Part shown: positions 6,191 through 32,937 of the stretch, piece after piece
Layout of the letters: every line of letters begins with the position of its first letter
How positions within the stretch are numbered: the first letter of the stretch is position 1
Origin: a virus
Length of the DNA stretch: 64,000 nt
Strand: one strand, 5' to 3'
IMG/VR virus record: IMGVR_UViG_3300005337_000441
Span: 62,001-126,000 of that record
The notes under the pieces: generated by a model
Databases searched by the model: none
Seen by the model: only the letters and a program-made list of their open reading frames with translations
Told to the model about the DNA's origin: nothing
Position numbers and translations under genes: made by a program

Positions 6191-7159
6191 ATGCGAATGA
6201 AACTCTACGCCTGCGGCGGTGCTGGCATCAACACGGTCAAGCAGTTTGCCCCGTTCAACGGTCAAGCCAATCCGGGCTTTGCCACGATCGAAACCGTCTT
6301 CATCGACACGAGCCGCTCCAACCTGGACAGCAGCATCCCCGAGCAGATGACCTACCTGGTCCAAGAGCTCGACGGTTCGGGCAAGCGCCGTGCCACGAAC
6401 CATGCCGCTCTGTCCGAGAGCATCAACGAGATCCTGCTGGAACACCGTCCTGGCGACATCAACATCATCGTGCACTCTGCCGGCGGTGGCTCGGGCTCGG
6501 TGATCGGCCCGCTACTCACCAACGAACTGCTGGGTCGCGAGCAACTCGTCATCGTCCTGGCCATCGGTTCGACCTCTTCGAAGATCGAGACCGAGAACAC
6601 CAAGAAGACGCTGCAGTCGCTGGAATCGATCAGCCAGCGCCGCTCGATGCCGGTGTGCGTGTACTACCGCGAGAACACGCTGGAAAAGCCCCGTGGCGAC
6701 ATCGACCGCGATGTGTCCACTGCCATCTCGCTGATGACGGCCATCTTCTCGGGCCAGAACCGCGAGTTCGACACCGAAGACCTGCGCAACTTCCTGAACT
6801 ACCCGCGCGTCACGAGCTACCCGGCCAAGCTGTCCTACCTGGACCTGTTTGCCAAGGACATCGACCTGGACACCAAGAACGAGGCCATCGTCTCGCTCAT
6901 CACGCTGTCCAACGGTGAAGTCCCCACCGAAGTGCCTCAGCACGTCGAGTACCAGGCCACGGGTTACCTGCACGAGGCTGCGTTCAAGGTGGTCAAGCAA
7001 TCCATGCCGATCCACACGGCCGTGATCGCCGGTCACTTCAGCAAGCTCATCGGTCGCCTGGACAAGCGTCTGGCCGAGTTCGCTGAAATCCGCTCCACCG
7101 TGCACGAGAAGTCCATCCTCGGCTCCGCCTCCACGACCGACGACGGTATGGTGCTGTAA
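6191..7159 (+). CDS. phuZ: PhuZ-like phage tubulin
   Basis: 322 residues, the usual PhuZ length. The N-terminal GGAGIN (9-14) matches the FtsZ/tubulin nucleotide loop, and SAGGGSGS (about 96-103) matches the tubulin signature GGGTGSG. The C-terminus ends in a short tail with adjacent Asp residues (TTDDGMVL), as in PhuZ tails that link filament subunits. In phiKZ-like phages PhuZ is a GTPase that builds the spindle which centres the phage nucleus and carries capsids. It shares a promoter with the transglycosylase and ends at a terminator. Confidence 0.93.
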   Translation: MRMKLYACGGAGINTVKQFAPFNGQANPGFATIETVFIDTSRSNLDSSIPEQMTYLVQELDGSGKRRATNHAALSESINEILLEHRPGDINIIVHSAGGGSGSVIGPLLTNELLGREQLVIVLAIGSTSSKIETENTKKTLQSLESISQRRSMPVCVYYRENTLEKPRGDIDRDVSTAISLMTAIFSGQNREFDTEDLRNFLNYPRVTSYPAKLSYLDLFAKDIDLDTKNEAIVSLITLSNGEVPTEVPQHVEYQATGYLHEAAFKVVKQSMPIHTAVIAGHFSKLIGRLDKRLAEFAEIRSTVHEKSILGSASTTDDGMVL

Positions 7160-13810: not shown

Positions 13811-14260
13811 ATGTGGAAACATGGATTCCTGATTGCGGAGAACAAACAGAAGCAGCGCCCCATGTTGGTGGAGTTCCGTGCGTTCTTCCGCTTTGAAACG
13901 CACCACCTCTACCGCAAGTGCGGCAGTGCGGCGCCGGTGTATGTCTACATCTTGAAAATCGACGGCTATCGTGAAGTCGTCTCGATGTTCTACGCTCAAA
14001 ACTACTTCTGGTTCGGTAATGATCAGATCTTCCTGGAGCCTGGTGAGAAACTTATCATCGCCACCTCCGGCATGAAGAAGAAAGAGGATGCTTTCCTCAT
14101 GGAGAGTATCTCTGGTATCCTTCACGGTGAAGATGACGAACTCAAGCGTTACGACAAGCAGTTCCGTATCGTCAGAAGCTCAGAGATCAAACCGATCGAA
14201 AGCTACCGGCACAAAGTCCATCAGCCGAGGAGGAAGAAAGATGTCGCCCTCATCACCTGA
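13811..14260 (+). CDS. Unknown protein, distant FYHH-family relative
   Basis: 149 residues. The middle (VYVYILKIDGYREVVSMFY... LEPGEKLIIATSG) parallels the copies at 12220 and 12509 in strand order and the Pro-Gly-acidic turn. C-terminus very basic (RHKVHQPRRKK). Overlaps the next gene by 20 bases. Function unknown. Confidence 0.82.
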   Translation: MWKHGFLIAENKQKQRPMLVEFRAFFRFETHHLYRKCGSAAPVYVYILKIDGYREVVSMFYAQNYFWFGNDQIFLEPGEKLIIATSGMKKKEDAFLMESISGILHGEDDELKRYDKQFRIVRSSEIKPIESYRHKVHQPRRKKDVALIT

Positions 14261-14605: not shown

Positions 14606-14644
14606 GATGTAAAAACTTGTGTCGTTTTGGTATATCTATTGGAG
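14606..14644 (+). promoter_or_regulatory. Second-class promoter element (shared with chimallin leader)
   Basis: GATGTAAAAACTT (14606-14618) followed 11 bases later by GTATATCTATTGGAG (14630-14644). The same two blocks with nearly the same spacing stand at 30816-30855 before chimallin and nowhere else that I can see. Here no protein gene follows; structured RNA does. Confidence 0.65.
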
Positions 14645-15390
14645 CGAAATGAGCCACTACTCATGGAGCTTCAAAACAAATGCCCGGAAGCGATTTCGGG
14701 AAGTGGCTAGTCAAACGAGGAAGTCGGAAAGCCTCGTTCGAACAGCTGCGGCACATGACGTTCCGCATGGCTCATACCGGTATAGCAACCACTCGTTTCA
14801 CCCTTCTGGATGAAAACATCGTCCTCGGCGAGAACGCTACCCGAAAAGAGCTGCATCTGCCTGACGAGCCCGGGGAGCAATCCCCGGGCATGTGTTCCGT
14901 TCTTTAACAACTGGAAAAGAAGCCCATGAAAGCCAAGACTCGACTTGGCGCTGGATTCGATCGGTGATAAACCATCTACCAGCCAACGTTCATGGGAACT
15001 GACAGGTGCATTGCCCTCAGCGAGGGATGTGTGCAAAAAACCTGTCGGGGTGCCTAGCGGACTCGTTCGCGAGATGGTGAAAAAGCAGGGAGAAGTTGAG
15101 AAAACCGCTGCGGCGGCTGCTCCTTCTCCCTGCCTGGCATTTAGAGAATCGAATAAAGGACGTGCTTGGGGTGCCGAGACCAGACTCGGTGATGGGTTTT
15201 CGCGAATCACATTCAACCCCCCAAGAAGTAGCGCGTAGGGCGGACGAGAGTCGTTGCCTGATTATCGTGCTGCGGTACAAGCGCCGGGAGTTGCCCAACA
15301 TCCTCCGGCCATGCCCCCTGCCTCTGCATCATCTACCTCGACCGCGCTGGTCCAGGTTCGGTGCGGTTGGCAGGGGCGTGTGCTTTTTTT
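14645..15390 (+). ncRNA. Candidate large structured non-coding RNA
   Basis: About 750 bases without a convincing gene but full of stems: AGCCACT (14652-14658) with AGTGGCT (14702-14708) enclosing CCCGGAA-GCGA-TTTCGGG (14683-14700, a GNRA tetraloop); AACGAGG/CCTCGTT (14714-14738); a 9-bp stem at 14868-14889; an 11-bp perfect stem GCAGGGAGAAG (15085-15095) with CTTCTCCCTGC (15123-15133); CCGAG/CTCGG (15174-15189); and a final stem (15313-15322 with 15369-15377) before seven T, a good terminator. Not rRNA, tRNA or tmRNA by inspection. The internal 75-codon frame at 14680-14907 lacks a ribosome site and overlaps these stems. Confidence 0.5.
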
Positions 15391-15437: not shown

Positions 15438-15572
15438 ATGCTCTACCCTTCTTCTTATCGGCAGCTGCTTGCTGCTCTTTCGTTCATATCGCTGCCGGCC
15501 GTGGGGCCGCCGATTGCAACGAAAGACCATGCAGCAAACAACCAAGGAACATCGAGCGCTTCGGCGTCATGA
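15438..15572 (+). CDS. Small hydrophobic peptide ORF
   Basis: 44 codons from ATG 15438, behind CGGAGAAAGAAAA. The product (MLYPSSYRQLLAALSFISLP...) has a short hydrophobic segment like a weak signal or membrane helix, then a polar tail. It overlaps the start of the next gene by 44 bases. Real only if translation of the two is coupled; function unknown. Confidence 0.4.
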   Translation: MLYPSSYRQLLAALSFISLPAVGPPIATKDHAANNQGTSSASAS

Positions 15573-15795
15573 ACGTGCACGCCTTCTGAAAAAGCGTGCC
15601 AACTATTGGGGAGGTTGGGTTGCTTTACCTGACCGCGCAGGTAAACTCCTGCACACCCCTTGTAATTGCAGCTGCTTTATGTGTGGCAACCCGCGCAAAT
15701 ACTTCGGTAACGCGCGAGATGCTCTCACTGTAGCAGAGCAACGAGTCACCCAGCGCCAGCTTGGTGAGCACTTCACTCCCGACGAAAGGGAGTGA
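15529..15795 (+). CDS. Small CSCxxCGNPR-family protein
   Basis: 88 residues from ATG 15529. A very basic N-terminal helix (RALRRHERARLLKKR) is followed by ANYWGGW, then TPCNCSCFMCGNPRKYFG. This Cys pattern plus GNPR marks a small family found in many bacteria and phages; its function is not established as far as I know, and the basic arm plus likely zinc site suggests RNA binding. It sits alone between two structured non-coding stretches, which favours a role with those RNAs. Confidence 0.75.
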   Translation: MQQTTKEHRALRRHERARLLKKRANYWGGWVALPDRAGKLLHTPCNCSCFMCGNPRKYFGNARDALTVAEQRVTQRQLGEHFTPDERE

Positions 15796-16300
15796 GAGAT
15801 CCCCTAATTCTGAAACATGTCTCATCGGTGGTGGTTCATTCACCTTCTGGTAATATGACCGCCGTATAGCCGAGAATGTGGGAAGGAGCCAAACCCGTCT
15901 TCGGACGGGAGGTCGTTGAGCACACAAGGGATCTTCACCCATGTTCACGCCCCGGCGTGTCATAGGGTCACGGCTCAAGCGGAACCACATACCTAGGGGC
16001 CCCTGGGCGTGCAGTTGTTACGGGGCAACTGTCAATGGTGGACTGAAAGGTCATTCCGATATAGCTGCTGACAGCGACCTGGACATGAATACCGACAGGG
16101 TCAGCCCGTGTCGGACAAAAAGGCTTGGTGGTGGCTGAGATGCAGACTCAGTGCGGACTCACAGTAGGCCGCGGAAGACCCAAGAAGTGTCGCATGCGTT
16201 GTTAGCGCGCGAGGCGGCGCAAACCTTCATCGCTGGAAGATACTGGAGCAGTTGTCTCCATGACTTTCAGGATGAGGGAGTGCGCTTTTTGTTTTACCTC
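15796..16300 (+). ncRNA. Second candidate structured non-coding RNA
   Basis: About 500 bases with no plausible gene on the + strand. Clear helices: CCCGTC-TTCG-GACGGG (15894-15909, UUCG tetraloop), CAGTTG/CAACTG (16012-16031), AGGTC/GACCT (16048-16080) enclosing GCTG/CAGC, and CCGACAGGG (16092-16100) with CCC-TGTCGG (16105-16114). The 3' end runs into T-rich sequence (16286-16304). No RNase P or tmRNA core is visible. It may be a separate RNA or the 3' part of one locus with the preceding element. Confidence 0.45.
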
Positions 16301-16311
16301 TTTTGGACCTC

Positions 16312-16821
16312 ATGAGTTTCGAACAAACCCTCGGCAGTAAAGACTGGCTGAATCAAAACGAAACCGCTCTTCGTGAGATGTTTCCTGAAACATGGACTCA
16401 CGTTGAGAACATGAAACTCCTTCCGATCATGTACAGGCTCAAGACCTTGGGCGTGGACTGGCGTGAAGAGAATGAAATCCCGGAGATTCTGACGTTCTTC
16501 AGGAACGCCGGCGTCTACGCCATGAATGCTTCCAAGCAGGTCATGCGAAACCACAAGCATCTCGAATTCGAGATGACCTACAAACCGCAGGATCGTCGCC
16601 TGAGCGAAGTGATCCCGGATGAAACCGAAGAGAAGGAAGACAAAGTCACGATCCCCAATCCGGTCGGAACCATCGCGTGGTTCTTGCTGCTGTTCGGTTG
16701 GATTGGTGGCTTTGTGCTCGCCAAGGGCTTTTGGTCCACGGTGTGTTGTCTGTGTCCTCTGTGGGCCTGGTACTTGGTTGTCGAGCGTCTCTTCCAACTC
16801 TGGGGCATGATTCCCCTGTGA
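16312..16821 (+). CDS. Membrane-anchored protein of unknown function
   Basis: 169 residues from ATG 16312; ribosome site weak. A soluble, acidic N-terminal domain (1-115) is followed by two hydrophobic segments near the C-terminus (about 118-136 and 140-160, with CCLC between). It would sit in the inner membrane with the N-terminal domain exposed on one side. No family recognised. Confidence 0.8.
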   Translation: MSFEQTLGSKDWLNQNETALREMFPETWTHVENMKLLPIMYRLKTLGVDWREENEIPEILTFFRNAGVYAMNASKQVMRNHKHLEFEMTYKPQDRRLSEVIPDETEEKEDKVTIPNPVGTIAWFLLLFGWIGGFVLAKGFWSTVCCLCPLWAWYLVVERLFQLWGMIPL

Positions 16822-16871: not shown

Positions 16872-16893
16872 TCGGCTTAGAAAAGATTTCAGC

Positions 16894-16903
16894 AACACAT
16901 ACT
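16894..16903 (+). promoter_or_regulatory. CACATATACT-class promoter, variant AACACATACT
   Basis: Two mismatches from consensus; TTATGTGACC follows. 41 bases before the ATG at 16944. Confidence 0.55.
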
Positions 16904-16943
16904 TTATGTGACCCCTAACTCAAATCTTTCTCGGAGGGAGAAG

Positions 16944-21357: not shown

Positions 21358-23493
21358 ATGAACAGCAATGCATTTCTGCGAGACGCAGATTTCTATCAAC
21401 GCAACATCAACCCCATAGCGCAGTACGCCGAACAGTCGGCATTCTATCTCTCCAAGATGACCGGCAAACCCCTGGAGGATTGCAAGAAGTGGGTCATCGA
21501 CGGTATTCGTAACCGCAAGTTCGCTGGCGTGACCGATCCGCAAGTGGACTTCTACGAACGTGGCGACAATGGTGATCGCCAGGAGACCTCCATGAAGCTC
21601 TCGGGCTTCATCTCCACGGTGGTGCGGGACGATCTGATCCTGGCACCCACCTTCACCTGCTATGTCAAGCCCAAGGTCTACAAGTCCTTGTTGGCGGGCT
21701 TCACGGTGAACAACACCAAGGTGCGCTCCATTGCCAAGAAAGCAGCAGCAAAGGCCAAGGCTGCTGGCGACATGGAGCTTGCCATCATCAAGAACAACGA
21801 ACAGGACAACCGCAAGCGTTCGAACAACTCCCTCTCAGGGGCGTTCGTGGCCGGTGGCTCTGTCGTGAACAACCCGACCGCACACAGCACGTTGACCTCC
21901 ATCACGCGCACGGTGGGATCGCTGGGCAATGCGTCCAACGAGAAGATCATCATGGGCAACCGGCATTACCGCAATGCCGACATCACTCTGGACAACCTGG
22001 TCTGCATCACGTCCCTCATGGACCGTGAAGAGCTGCGACATGCGGTCGAGAAGTTCGGTCTGGTCTACCCGACGATCGAGCAGACGCTGGAGTGCATCAA
22101 GTACTCCTCGCAGCTGTATTGGAGTGATCCGATCTCGTTTGCCAAGATCTACAAGTTCGTGGAGAAGCTCGATCCGATCGAGCGAGCCGGTGTGGTCTAC
22201 ATCGGTGACTTCTACCACGTGCGCAAGTACAACGAAGCGTTTGCCCGACGCTTCATCGGCGAGCTGTCCAAGAAGGTCAAGGGCGTGCCCGTGGAGGAAC
22301 CCAAAGAGGTCCTCAAGAAGGCTGACGAAATGGTCATGAACTATGTGCACCAGATCTGCATCAGCGAAGTCAAGGGCATCGGTAAGGACTACGACAAGAT
22401 CAGCCTGGAAGACCAGCAGACGGTCGCTGCCACGGCGCTCAATGTTGACGCAGTGGTCGAGAAGTATCGTGAGTTCATCAATGCGATCTTCCTGACCAAG
22501 ATCGTGCCGGCCTCCACCGCCTACATCCCTGGGATGATCCGCCGATCGGTGGTGCTCTCGGACACGGACTCCACGATGTTCTCCATCGACAACTGGGTCG
22601 AGTGGTACTTCGGTGAGCTGCGTTTCGATGACGAAGGCTTTGCGGCCTCGGGTGCGGTGATGTTCATTGCCACGCAGTGCATCGCTCACAGCCTGGCGGT
22701 CTTTTCGGCCAACATGAACGTGGAGCGTGAGCATCTCTTCACGCTAGCCATGAAGCCCGAGTTCGTCTTCCCGGTGTTCGCCCAGAGCGCGGTGGCCAAG
22801 CACTACTACACCATCCAGTACGTGAAGGAAGGCAACGTCCACAAGGTGCCTGAAATGGAGATCAAGGGTGTGCACCTGAAGAACTCCGCTGCACCGCGTG
22901 AGATCGTGCTGGCTGCTGCTGAGAAGATGAAGGAGATCCTGATGCGGGTGATGAATGGGGAGAAGCTCTCCATCATCGACAACATCAACGAGGTCGTGGC
23001 TTTGGAGACCAAGATCACGGACTCCTTGAATTCGGGTAACGTCACCTACCTCAAGACCTCCAAGATCAAGCAGAAGGAAGCCTACGCGCTGTCCGAGACC
23101 GAGTCACCGTTCCAGCATCACACGCTCTGGGTCGAAGTCTTCGGCCCGAAGTACGGAGTGCCGGAACAGCCACCGTACGGGGTCTTCAAGATCCCTACCA
23201 CCTTGGACAACAAGACCCGGGTGAAGCAGTGGCTCGACACGATGGAGGACCGCGACGTTGCTCAACGCATGGGTAACTGGCTTGCCAAGATGGGTAAAAC
23301 CACTCTGGGAACGATGTACGTTTCGATCTCTTATGCCAAGTCCTACGGGATTCCAAAGGAGATCGTGCCCATCATCGACATGAAGAAGATCGTACTCGAT
23401 CTGACAAATGCCAATCGGATGATCCTCGGTACCCTCGGGTACTGTCCGAAAACCAATTGGCTGCTTCGTGACCAGGTGCATCACGCCTGCTAA
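21358..23493 (+). CDS. Family B DNA polymerase, palm subunit (phiKZ-type)
   Basis: 711 residues from ATG 21358 (AAAGGAACGGCG site); a TTG at 21340 is less likely. The block NNSLSGAF...NNPTAHSTLTS (about 154-178) resembles the fingers motif B region of phiKZ-like polymerases, and VLSDTDST (about 398-405) is palm motif C with the two catalytic Asp. I do not see the 3'-5' exonuclease motifs or the usual DxxSLYP motif A, so these are probably in another gene of a split polymerase. It would copy the phage genome inside the phage nucleus. Confidence 0.8.
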   Translation: MNSNAFLRDADFYQRNINPIAQYAEQSAFYLSKMTGKPLEDCKKWVIDGIRNRKFAGVTDPQVDFYERGDNGDRQETSMKLSGFISTVVRDDLILAPTFTCYVKPKVYKSLLAGFTVNNTKVRSIAKKAAAKAKAAGDMELAIIKNNEQDNRKRSNNSLSGAFVAGGSVVNNPTAHSTLTSITRTVGSLGNASNEKIIMGNRHYRNADITLDNLVCITSLMDREELRHAVEKFGLVYPTIEQTLECIKYSSQLYWSDPISFAKIYKFVEKLDPIERAGVVYIGDFYHVRKYNEAFARRFIGELSKKVKGVPVEEPKEVLKKADEMVMNYVHQICISEVKGIGKDYDKISLEDQQTVAATALNVDAVVEKYREFINAIFLTKIVPASTAYIPGMIRRSVVLSDTDSTMFSIDNWVEWYFGELRFDDEGFAASGAVMFIATQCIAHSLAVFSANMNVEREHLFTLAMKPEFVFPVFAQSAVAKHYYTIQYVKEGNVHKVPEMEIKGVHLKNSAAPREIVLAAAEKMKEILMRVMNGEKLSIIDNINEVVALETKITDSLNSGNVTYLKTSKIKQKEAYALSETESPFQHHTLWVEVFGPKYGVPEQPPYGVFKIPTTLDNKTRVKQWLDTMEDRDVAQRMGNWLAKMGKTTLGTMYVSISYAKSYGIPKEIVPIIDMKKIVLDLTNANRMILGTLGYCPKTNWLLRDQVHHAC

Positions 23494-30815: not shown

Positions 30816-30855
30816 GATGTAAAAAACTTCCTCCCTTTCCGTATATCTATTGGAG
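30816..30855 (+). promoter_or_regulatory. Second-class promoter element before chimallin
   Basis: GATGTAAAAAACTT (30816-30829) and GTATATCTATTGGAG (30841-30855), matching 14606-14644 with one extra A between blocks. It points toward chimallin over a 220-base leader. Confidence 0.68.
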
Positions 30856-31077
30856 ACAAGTGCTCCTTACATCCACCTGGAGGCAACTCCAGGTGGAGAT
30901 ATAAGGTTCACTACGTTGTCTCGGGATCAAATCCCGTTTCTAACGTTGTTCAGCCCCTTATACTTTAACTGGAAAAAGGTAGCTGATGACTTGCTTCCCC
31001 CTTGTACACGGTGGGGTGTACCGTGTAGTGTGTTTTAGCTAAAACGTTCTTAGAAAACCTCTTTGGAGAAAATTGCA
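30856..31077 (+). promoter_or_regulatory. Long structured 5' leader of chimallin
   Basis: No gene. Contains a 9-bp hairpin CCACCTGGA/TCCAGGTGG (30873-30896), CGGGA/TCCCG (30922-30936), a TTATACTTTAACTGG element near 30958 that may be another promoter, TACACGGT/ACCGTGTA (31005-31027), and the perfect palindrome GTTTTAGCTAAAAC (31032-31045) before GGAGAA and the ATG. Such a leader suggests mRNA stabilisation or translational control of a very abundant protein. Confidence 0.6.
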
Positions 31078-32937
31078 ATGGCAATCCACGACGACCAAAA
31101 CGACGGCAACCGTACCTCCGCTGCAAGCGCGCAGGGCGGTTTCAACGCCTTCGACAGCTTCCACACCGGCGGCCTGTTCGCTGCCCCCATCAGCCAGGGC
31201 ATGGGCTCCGAGTTCTACACCAAGGTGAAGCAGGGCCTGCTGGACCTGTACAAGGACGTCAACCCCAACGTCAAGATCGCCCTGATCGACCTGGACAACG
31301 TCAACAACCCCGCTTTTGACTTCTCCAACATCATCGTCGCCGCGCAGCTGAAGAACGCTCCGGAACTCGGCGTCGCCTACCACATCCTGGCCCTGGAAGC
31401 CACCGGCGAGAAGCTGGGCCCGGTCATGGACACCATCAACAACCAGACCATCGAGATCCAGCGCGTCACCTCCGACACCATCGACACCGCCCTGGTCAAG
31501 GCCGCCGCCGCCAAGGTCGAAGCTGCCTTCCCCGGCGTCGCCAGCCACTGGGTCGATGCGACCGTGGTGCCCGACACCTTCAACCCCGATGACAAGACCG
31601 CCATGCACAAGCTGGCGCTGTTCACCGGCCTGGCCTGCTCCACCGAGCTGCAGATCCACTCGCCTGACTTCCGTGACCTGAACCTGGCTCACATCAAGAA
31701 CGAAGGCCAGCTGACCGTGCGCCTGGACTTCGGCCGCCAGCAAGTCGAGAACATCGTCGGCCAGCCGCAGCGCTCCGACGTCAGCGGCTCCCTGACCAGC
31801 CGCAAGAACGTCCCGGGCCGTCAGGCTCAGGTCAACACCGGTGACAAGGAAGCTCACGTCGCCCGCGTCGGCGGCTTCATCGATCTGGTCTGGGCGCCGC
31901 GCGGCGGTGACACGGGCTTCAACCCGTGGCTCGCCCAGCAGCAGCAACAGCAAATGGCCATGAACCCGATGCTCACGCAGAAGTACGCTGCGCGTCTGGT
32001 CCTGACCGACATCCAATCCCGCTTCGCCTACACGCCTTCGCTGGTGCTGCTGGCCGTGGCCACCTCGCTGACCGCGAGCGACAACAACAACTGGTTCCAA
32101 GCCTACCGTCCCACTCCGTCGGCCGGCAAGGGTTCCATCGACCTCAACGACATCGGCGCTCTGAACATCGAGGCCAACATCTCCAACGAACCCGGCGGCT
32201 TCGGCTCGCGCATCAACACGAAGGGCGAGGAATTCCAGCTGTCGCAGCTGGGCACGCTGATCGGCATGATGGTGCAACCGGGCATGATGCTGGCCATCGA
32301 CGTGCCGGAAGCTGGTCCGCAGTCGTGGTACCTGTCCATGTTCGCCAACGCGGCGAACGGCAGCCAGGCCGCCTACGACGCCATCTACAACGCCGCCAAC
32401 GAGCTGACCAACGGCGCCTTCAGCCGCCACTTCGCTGCTGGCACGCAGATGTTCGTCGACACGAACAACCGCGTCCACCTCGGCAACTGGACGGACCGTC
32501 TGGGCAACAAGCGCGACATCCGCGACATCGACTACCTGGCCGTCGCCAACCTGCTGGGCGACTCCAACCCGTCGGCGATCCGCGACTGGAGCGACACGTT
32601 CCTGCGCACCGAGTACCCGCTGCCCCAGCGTCTGGCCGCTCGCAAGCGCATGATCAGCAGCCTCACCGGCGAGACCGCGGTCTTCACCGGCTTCGCTCAG
32701 CGCGTCACCTTCAGCGGCAAGTTCCTGGCCGCCTTCGGTGCTGCTCTGCGTGAAGTCAGCCCGCCGATGCGCGTCACCACCCCGCTGTCGGCTTCCGAGC
32801 TGAGCAACCAGCGCGGCTACGCCGGCTTCGCCGAGCAGGCCATGCTGGCTCCGGGCCAGACGTTCGCCCAGGTCGGCGGCTTCGGCAACGCCAACGCCTA
32901 CGCCGGTTACTTCGGTCCGGCGCAGCGCTGGATGTAA
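31078..32937 (+). CDS. chmA: Chimallin-like phage-nucleus shell protein
   Basis: 619 residues from ATG 31078 behind CTTTGGAGAAAATTGCA; a TTG at 31063 overlaps the ribosome site and is rejected. Length agrees with ChmA (about 600-665). An Ala/Gly-rich flexible N-terminal stretch is followed by a domain with NPNVKIALIDLDNV and LGVAYHILALEATGEKLGP, then VDATVVPDTFN, a layout I recognise from chimallins; Gly/Ala-rich C-terminal tail. ChmA self-assembles into the shell that shields phage DNA. Extreme bias to C-ending codons marks high expression. A capsid protein is the main alternative, less likely given the N-terminal half. Confidence 0.83.
   Translation: MAIHDDQNDGNRTSAASAQGGFNAFDSFHTGGLFAAPISQGMGSEFYTKVKQGLLDLYKDVNPNVKIALIDLDNVNNPAFDFSNIIVAAQLKNAPELGVAYHILALEATGEKLGPVMDTINNQTIEIQRVTSDTIDTALVKAAAAKVEAAFPGVASHWVDATVVPDTFNPDDKTAMHKLALFTGLACSTELQIHSPDFRDLNLAHIKNEGQLTVRLDFGRQQVENIVGQPQRSDVSGSLTSRKNVPGRQAQVNTGDKEAHVARVGGFIDLVWAPRGGDTGFNPWLAQQQQQQMAMNPMLTQKYAARLVLTDIQSRFAYTPSLVLLAVATSLTASDNNNWFQAYRPTPSAGKGSIDLNDIGALNIEANISNEPGGFGSRINTKGEEFQLSQLGTLIGMMVQPGMMLAIDVPEAGPQSWYLSMFANAANGSQAAYDAIYNAANELTNGAFSRHFAAGTQMFVDTNNRVHLGNWTDRLGNKRDIRDIDYLAVANLLGDSNPSAIRDWSDTFLRTEYPLPQRLAARKRMISSLTGETAVFTGFAQRVTFSGKFLAAFGAALREVSPPMRVTTPLSASELSNQRGYAGFAEQAMLAPGQTFAQVGGFGNANAYAGYFGPAQRWM

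Follow-up and report, generated by a model that had tools for sequence, protein, structure and literature searches.

A stretch of about 750 bases in the genome of a nucleus-forming jumbo phage is best read, with the support of the tests that we ran, as a large, structured RNA that is non-coding and has a putative promoter and terminator of its own; we call it RNA A. The region is non-coding and structured, with a promoter-like element in front of it and a terminator-type sequence at its end. It is related in structure to a second RNA close by (RNA B), and structured regions lie at the syntenic position in two relatives. RNA A is very probably a genuine non-coding RNA gene. For the explanation that we prefer as a whole, in which RNA A would act in trans as a scaffold, be transcribed from a promoter of the class found at the chimallin gene and stop at its own terminator, we estimate a probability of about one half.

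The window analysed here is the whole 64,000-nucleotide stretch of DNA, which comprises bases 62001–126000 of a 215,768-base virus record. Among its gene products are the tubulin PhuZ (6191–7159; phrog_4733, E 4e-82), the nuclear-shell protein chimallin (31078–32937; PF25677, phrog_4795) and a phiKZ-type DNA polymerase (21358–23493); these identify the virus as a jumbo phage of the nucleus-forming (Chimalliviridae) type. Among deposited polymerases, the nearest comes from Burkholderia phage FLC9 and is just 41% identical.

A gene-free, structured region

A first-pass annotation, made from the sequence alone, had pointed out that about 750 bases lack a convincing open reading frame (ORF) in a genome packed with genes, and its coordinates proved correct. 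A simple trained gene finder leaves its longest gap in the genome between 14601 and the gene at 16312; a small gene with homologues (15529–15795) sits within this gap, uncalled by that finder. The ORFs in 14645–15390 have log-odds per codon of −0.07 to −0.24, as compared with a median of 0.24 for the predicted genes. A conserved reading frame was also sought by tblastn among the fetched loci, which contained no relative of any of these ORFs.

The many strong stems remarked on in the same annotation are borne out by folding. The + strand of 14632–15390 folds at −313.7 kcal/mol, versus −268.3 ± 8.0 kcal/mol for shuffled sequences (z = −5.66), with none of 20 shuffles being equally good; the opposite strand gives a z of −3.40. 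When the genome is surveyed in 200-nt windows, two regions stand out as the most structured, and RNA A is one of them. The other was considered as a further RNA and rejected, as it turned out to consist of a gene (a 154-aa ORF) and a strong bidirectional terminator. Its fold z is equally extreme, so that a folding z alone is not decisive for an RNA gene. The parts of RNA A are as follows; MFE denotes the minimum free energy fold.

14645–15390, + strand: RNA A, predicted large structured non-coding RNA (fold z, coding test, Rfam; ends placed by the promoter-like element and the T-tract)
14683–14700, + strand: hairpin with a GCGA (GNRA) tetraloop, loop at 14690–14693 (sequence and MFE fold)
14868–14889, + strand: 9-bp hairpin GCCCGGGGA-GCAA-UCCCCGGGC with a GNRA tetraloop (sequence and MFE fold)
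14923–14999, + strand: three-way-junction module A1, closing stem CCCATGAA/TTCATGGG, hairpin HP1 at 14932–14949 (MFE fold, descriptor, HP1 covariation)
15072–15086, + strand: A-rich strand, candidate partner of the terminal U-tract (MFE fold to 15400)
15085–15133, + strand: hairpin with an 11-bp perfect stem, GCAGGGAGAAG at 15085–15095 with CUUCUCCCUGC at 15123–15133 (sequence and MFE fold)
15165–15229, + strand: three-way-junction module A2, CTTGGGG/CCCCAAG, HP1 at 15173–15190, then AAGT (MFE fold, alignment with RNA B, descriptor, HP1 covariation)
15313–15390, + strand: putative terminator of RNA A, branched hairpin and seven-T tract (sequence and MFE fold)

Three of these parts, namely the GNRA hairpin at 14868–14889, the 11-bp perfect stem and the T-tract terminator, had been named in the first-pass annotation and are all present; the hairpin with the GCGA loop is a second one of the same kind. 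The terminator has an 8-bp basal stem within 15313–15377, followed by seven T at 15384–15390. It is absent from the output of a simple terminator scan, because such a scan covers short-loop hairpins only. Module A1 folds with an MFE z of −3.88. The predicted pairing of the terminal U-tract with the A-rich strand at 15072–15086, which also appears in the MFE fold of the corresponding RNA of the relative L017, was no better than in shuffles (5/40), and is suggestive only.

The promoter-like element and its copy before the chimallin gene

The promoter that had been postulated for the RNA corresponds to a promoter-like element ending at the base before RNA A, and a closely matching element precedes the chimallin gene.

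14609–14644, + strand: promoter-like element of RNA A, GTAAAAACTTG-N10-GTATATCTATTGGAG (block counts, near copy at chimallin, L017)
30819–30855, + strand: matching promoter-like element before chimallin, GTAAAAAACTT-N11-GTATATCTATTGGAG (near-identical copy)

The exact 15-mer of the element occurs at two sites only in the genome, before RNA A and before chimallin. With up to two errors allowed, its downstream block is found five times, each time in an intergenic position and on the + strand, and has no occurrence in three shuffled genomes. In L017, whose chimallin is 57% identical to that of the window phage, the block stands before the syntenic RNA (4552) and again before the chimallin gene (16722). 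The element is not of the sigma-70 type; because of its near copy at chimallin and the presence of both sites in L017, we assign it to a shell-protein class. From these sequence matches we infer that the element may be active, and strong or early, and RNA A is likely to be expressed with chimallin.

Several further observations concern these upstream regions. The chimallin gene has a leader of ~220 nt behind its promoter-like element, both in the window (30856–31077) and in L017 (L017:16737–16963), and an AGCTAA-AACGTTC block, perhaps cis-regulatory, lies near the chimallin start codon of both phages (TTTTAGCTAAAACGTTC and TTAGCTAACAAAAACGTTC). The sequence AACTGGAAAA (~30967, after the chimallin promoter) was considered as a further copy of the core and rejected, as the module is absent there. 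A short, conserved intergenic element of a different kind, AAAAGATTTCAG...CATA-TTTAT, occurs at 16876–16906 of the window and at L020:7146–7176 and L018:8279–8309; it is perhaps another class of phage promoter.

RNA B, the recurrent module and the relatives

The first-pass annotation contained neither RNA B, nor the promoter shared with chimallin, nor the structured syntenic regions of relatives. Between RNA A and the gene at 16312 we found the following.

15529–15795, + strand: gene of a small CxCxxC protein, phrog_4499, 88 aa, between RNA A and RNA B (homologues)
15855–16295 (about; 5′ end uncertain), + strand: RNA B, second predicted structured non-coding RNA (fold z, A–B structural alignment)
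16124–16188, + strand: three-way-junction module of RNA B, closing stem CTTGG/CCAAG, HP1 at 16134–16152, then AAGT (descriptor, covariation, alignment)

RNA B has a moderate fold z of −2.62 and a T-tract at 16286, with no clear promoter of its own. A local alignment of RNA A and RNA B that takes account of both structure and sequence scores 103.8, more than each of 150 shuffles of RNA B (mean 72.7, maximum 94.5) and each of 150 pieces taken at random from the genome (maximum 98.4). By sequence alone, the similarity is non-significant, 29 of 150 shuffles being equally good. These results show that RNA B is related to RNA A in structure and not in sequence.

The recurrent module consists, in order, of a closing stem, the 6-bp HP1, a second hairpin, a short A-rich strand, the closing 3′ strand and AAG/AAC. 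It is present twice in RNA A (14923–14999 and 15165–15229) and once in RNA B (16124–16188); when the RNA B module was folded as an isolated 94-nt piece, the MFE preferred a different fold. A descriptor of the module matches three places in the genome, all of them in the A/B region, and none in 200 sets of shuffles; these counts overstate the case because the descriptor was drawn from the very instances that it counts. HP1 lends itself to a test of covariation. In its five instances (A1, A2, RNA B, L017 and L018) the hairpin is fully paired, four of the six pairs show changes on both sides, and the covariation score was reached by none of 500 shuffles, a result that covers the HP1 hairpin in these five instances and not the whole fold of RNA A.

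Relatives were gathered with polymerase alignments, which gave 80 and 47 loci; searches with single proteins found none, and scans of a genome collection and with the DHH phosphoesterase revealed none closer than L017 and L018, whose polymerases are 56% identical to that of the window phage. Both keep the order DHH phosphoesterase, homologue of the gene at 14241 (detected in L017), non-coding stretch and homologue of the gene at 16312; in L017 the interval additionally holds small genes and a tRNA-Thr. The non-coding stretches are structured, with fold z values of −4.87 for L017 4565–4932, −6.51 for L018 6155–7098 and −3.99 for L018 7110–7735, and they end in a stem and a T-run. The L017 RNA and the first L018 RNA contain one HP1-type hairpin each, in similar surroundings.

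Sequence and structure searches did not connect these RNAs further. A covariance model built from the three window modules left L017 and L018 not above noise, direct structural alignments of RNA A with the L017 and L018 RNAs were no better than shuffles, a model of all five modules matched no further phage, and blastn of RNA A and the L018 RNAs against phages gave no match. Since the window-only model and the structural alignments fail to recover the relatives, the case for homology among the RNAs of these three phages rests on their position and general character, the shared motif being suggestive.

The phrog_4499 gene and the tRNA-Thr of L017 place RNA A in a setting reminiscent of RNA islands: relatives of the gene adjoin tRNA clusters in the two T5-like phages inspected, and in L019 three tRNAs lie upstream of the polymerase. 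No tRNA gene was found in the genome of the window phage itself, and ARAGORN reported neither tmRNA nor tRNA.

Known RNA classes, possible roles and a comparable RNA in FLC9

The first-pass annotation had compared the region in scale to the phage and bacterial RNAs GOLLD and ROOL while matching it to neither. In the covariance search that it called for, the Rfam part was carried through without yielding a family: at the gathering score, nothing but tRNAs in relatives was found in the window, the remainder of the genome and the relatives, and up to an E value of 5 the RNA A region drew just two matches, both to animal RNAs; they score far below the cut-offs and are due to chance. The GOLLD and ROOL models gave no match to RNA A at either level, and those for group I and II introns, RNase P RNA and other ribozymes gave none either, so that an intron or ribozyme identity was rejected. 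As to the other part, a model that includes related phages, the five-module model described above matched no further phage. By the Rfam test, RNA A is thus not a member of GOLLD, ROOL or another Rfam family. Large structured RNAs of nucleus-forming phages did not come up in text searches of an open-access library. By these searches, RNA A and RNA B are previously undescribed predicted structured RNAs.

We nevertheless group RNA A with the GOLLD and ROOL kind because of its size, its setting and the lack of a known protein partner. RNA on its own assembles into a 14-mer cage in the case of GOLLD and an octamer cage in that of ROOL. RNA A resembles GOLLD in being a large structured phage RNA in which one module, near the 3′ end, is recurrent and the remainder differs; unlike GOLLD, it has no Rfam match, belongs to a phage without tRNA and has a promoter-like element of the chimallin class. 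It resembles ROOL in its length and in being encoded by a phage, and differs from ROOL in the missing Rfam match and in the second, shorter related RNA alongside. Both known classes are phage RNAs that often lie near tRNA islands and form RNA-only assemblies; GOLLD is structured, often over 800 nt long and of unknown function, and the solved ROOL example is a phage-encoded RNA of 659 nt with no known protein partner (PMC12286853).

In the preferred explanation, RNA A would be transcribed separately, from a phage promoter of the chimallin class, stop at its own terminator and act in trans. The chimallin-class promoter and the terminator together lead us to expect abundant RNA A during shell making, so that it would probably be made in quantity alongside the nuclear shell. 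It would fold into several rigid domains, including the three-way-junction module that occurs twice in RNA A and once in RNA B. Most likely, many copies, possibly with RNA B, would assemble through loops and junctions into an RNA scaffold, which might hold or sequester translation components (tRNAs, ribosomes) as proposed for GOLLD and ROOL. It is this transcription, abundance, assembly and set of bound partners that we infer for RNA A; the scaffold mechanism as such, drawn by analogy with these two classes, is put forward tentatively.

RNA A might instead work as single molecules, as a regulator, sponge or decoy of a protein (the phage RNA polymerase, chimallin or a host factor, for example) or of RNAs, with no assembly. 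The repeated three-way-junction module would make a natural multi-copy binding site, and having a promoter in common with chimallin would suit a function in early infection, but no binding partner or target was found and a decoy could do without some 750 nt of varied structure; we think it rather unlikely. RNA A could also be a long cis-acting 5′ leader, a riboswitch or attenuator in which transcription would begin at 14645 and either halt at the T-tract at 15384–15390 or pass it, and so control the phrog_4499 gene and its neighbours. A promoter-like start, structure, a terminator and, behind it on the same strand, a gene all fit such a leader, as does the ~220-nt leader of chimallin behind the same promoter. 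About 750 nt is, however, very long for a leader, other genes follow the RNA in L017 and L018, which have no phrog_4499 homologue there, and RNA B repeats the module with a different gene after it. We regard a leader function as unlikely.

Two further readings deny that a new RNA gene exists here. According to one, the region is spacer or decayed coding DNA that folds by chance and carries a promoter for the downstream genes. The equally low fold z of a coding region in the same genome speaks for this, as does the fact that RNA homology to the relatives is unproven by sequence. Against it stand structured non-coding stretches at the same place in two relatives with polymerases 56% identical, a structure shared by A and B without significant sequence similarity, the covariation of HP1, and the promoter-like start and terminator-type end that bracket the structured part; chance folding is very unlikely. 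According to the other, RNA A is a diverged form of a known RNA or ribozyme (group I or II intron, RNase P RNA, tmRNA). Its size and complexity would be compatible with this, but the Rfam and ARAGORN results given above argue against it, and no interrupted gene was recognised in the flanks among the genes scanned, which makes this reading extremely unlikely.

A better-supported cousin of RNA A, with no detected sequence relation to it, occurs in Burkholderia phage FLC9. Directly after PhuZ, this phage has 770 unannotated bases (LC667451.1 7020–7789, minus strand; L002:14908–15677) with a fold z of −7.06, conserved at 73–84% in six metagenomic contigs (L039, L041–L043, L045 and L046). In an alignment of five members, 40 of the 229 predicted pairs have changes on both sides, versus 23.4 ± 3.0 in shuffles and at most 5 when the structure is slid. 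Like RNA A, the FLC9-type RNA belongs to a PhuZ-bearing phage, has the same length, ends in a stem and T-tract and matches no Rfam family. Both lie on the coding strand between PhuZ and the DNA polymerase, but the FLC9-type RNA follows PhuZ directly, whereas RNA A lies ~7.5 kb further on. Searched with blastn against phages, the FLC9 RNA found FLC9 itself only; it shows no blastn similarity to RNA A and lacks the module descriptor, and a profile of the FLC9 family, run over all loci and this genome, recovered FLC9-type members and left RNA A unmatched. The FLC9 class shows that large structured RNAs, as modelled here, also occur in other jumbo phages that have PhuZ.

The number of known large structured RNAs without an assigned function is small. 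If RNA A is expressed together with chimallin, and since a comparable covarying RNA is found in FLC9, a phage in culture, the role of such RNAs, be it in translation, in the phage nucleus or elsewhere, becomes directly testable. A more general proposition, which we regard as quite unlikely on present grounds, is that abundant large RNAs are made by nucleus-forming jumbo phages under joint regulation with chimallin, belong to unrelated families in different lineages and are working parts of the phage nucleus or its translation surroundings; they might, for example, serve as an RNA scaffold at the shell or as an RNA cage for tRNAs or ribosomes.

FLC9 has a second unannotated structured gap just before its DNA polymerase (L002:19453–19988; z −4.25), which ends in a stem and T-tracts. 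Conserved stretches right after PhuZ are also found in the further jumbo phages L121 (from 1748), L138 (from 1119), L040, L052 and L064, and may be genes missed by the simple finder, or RNAs; those of L121 and L138 share 447 bases at 80% identity.
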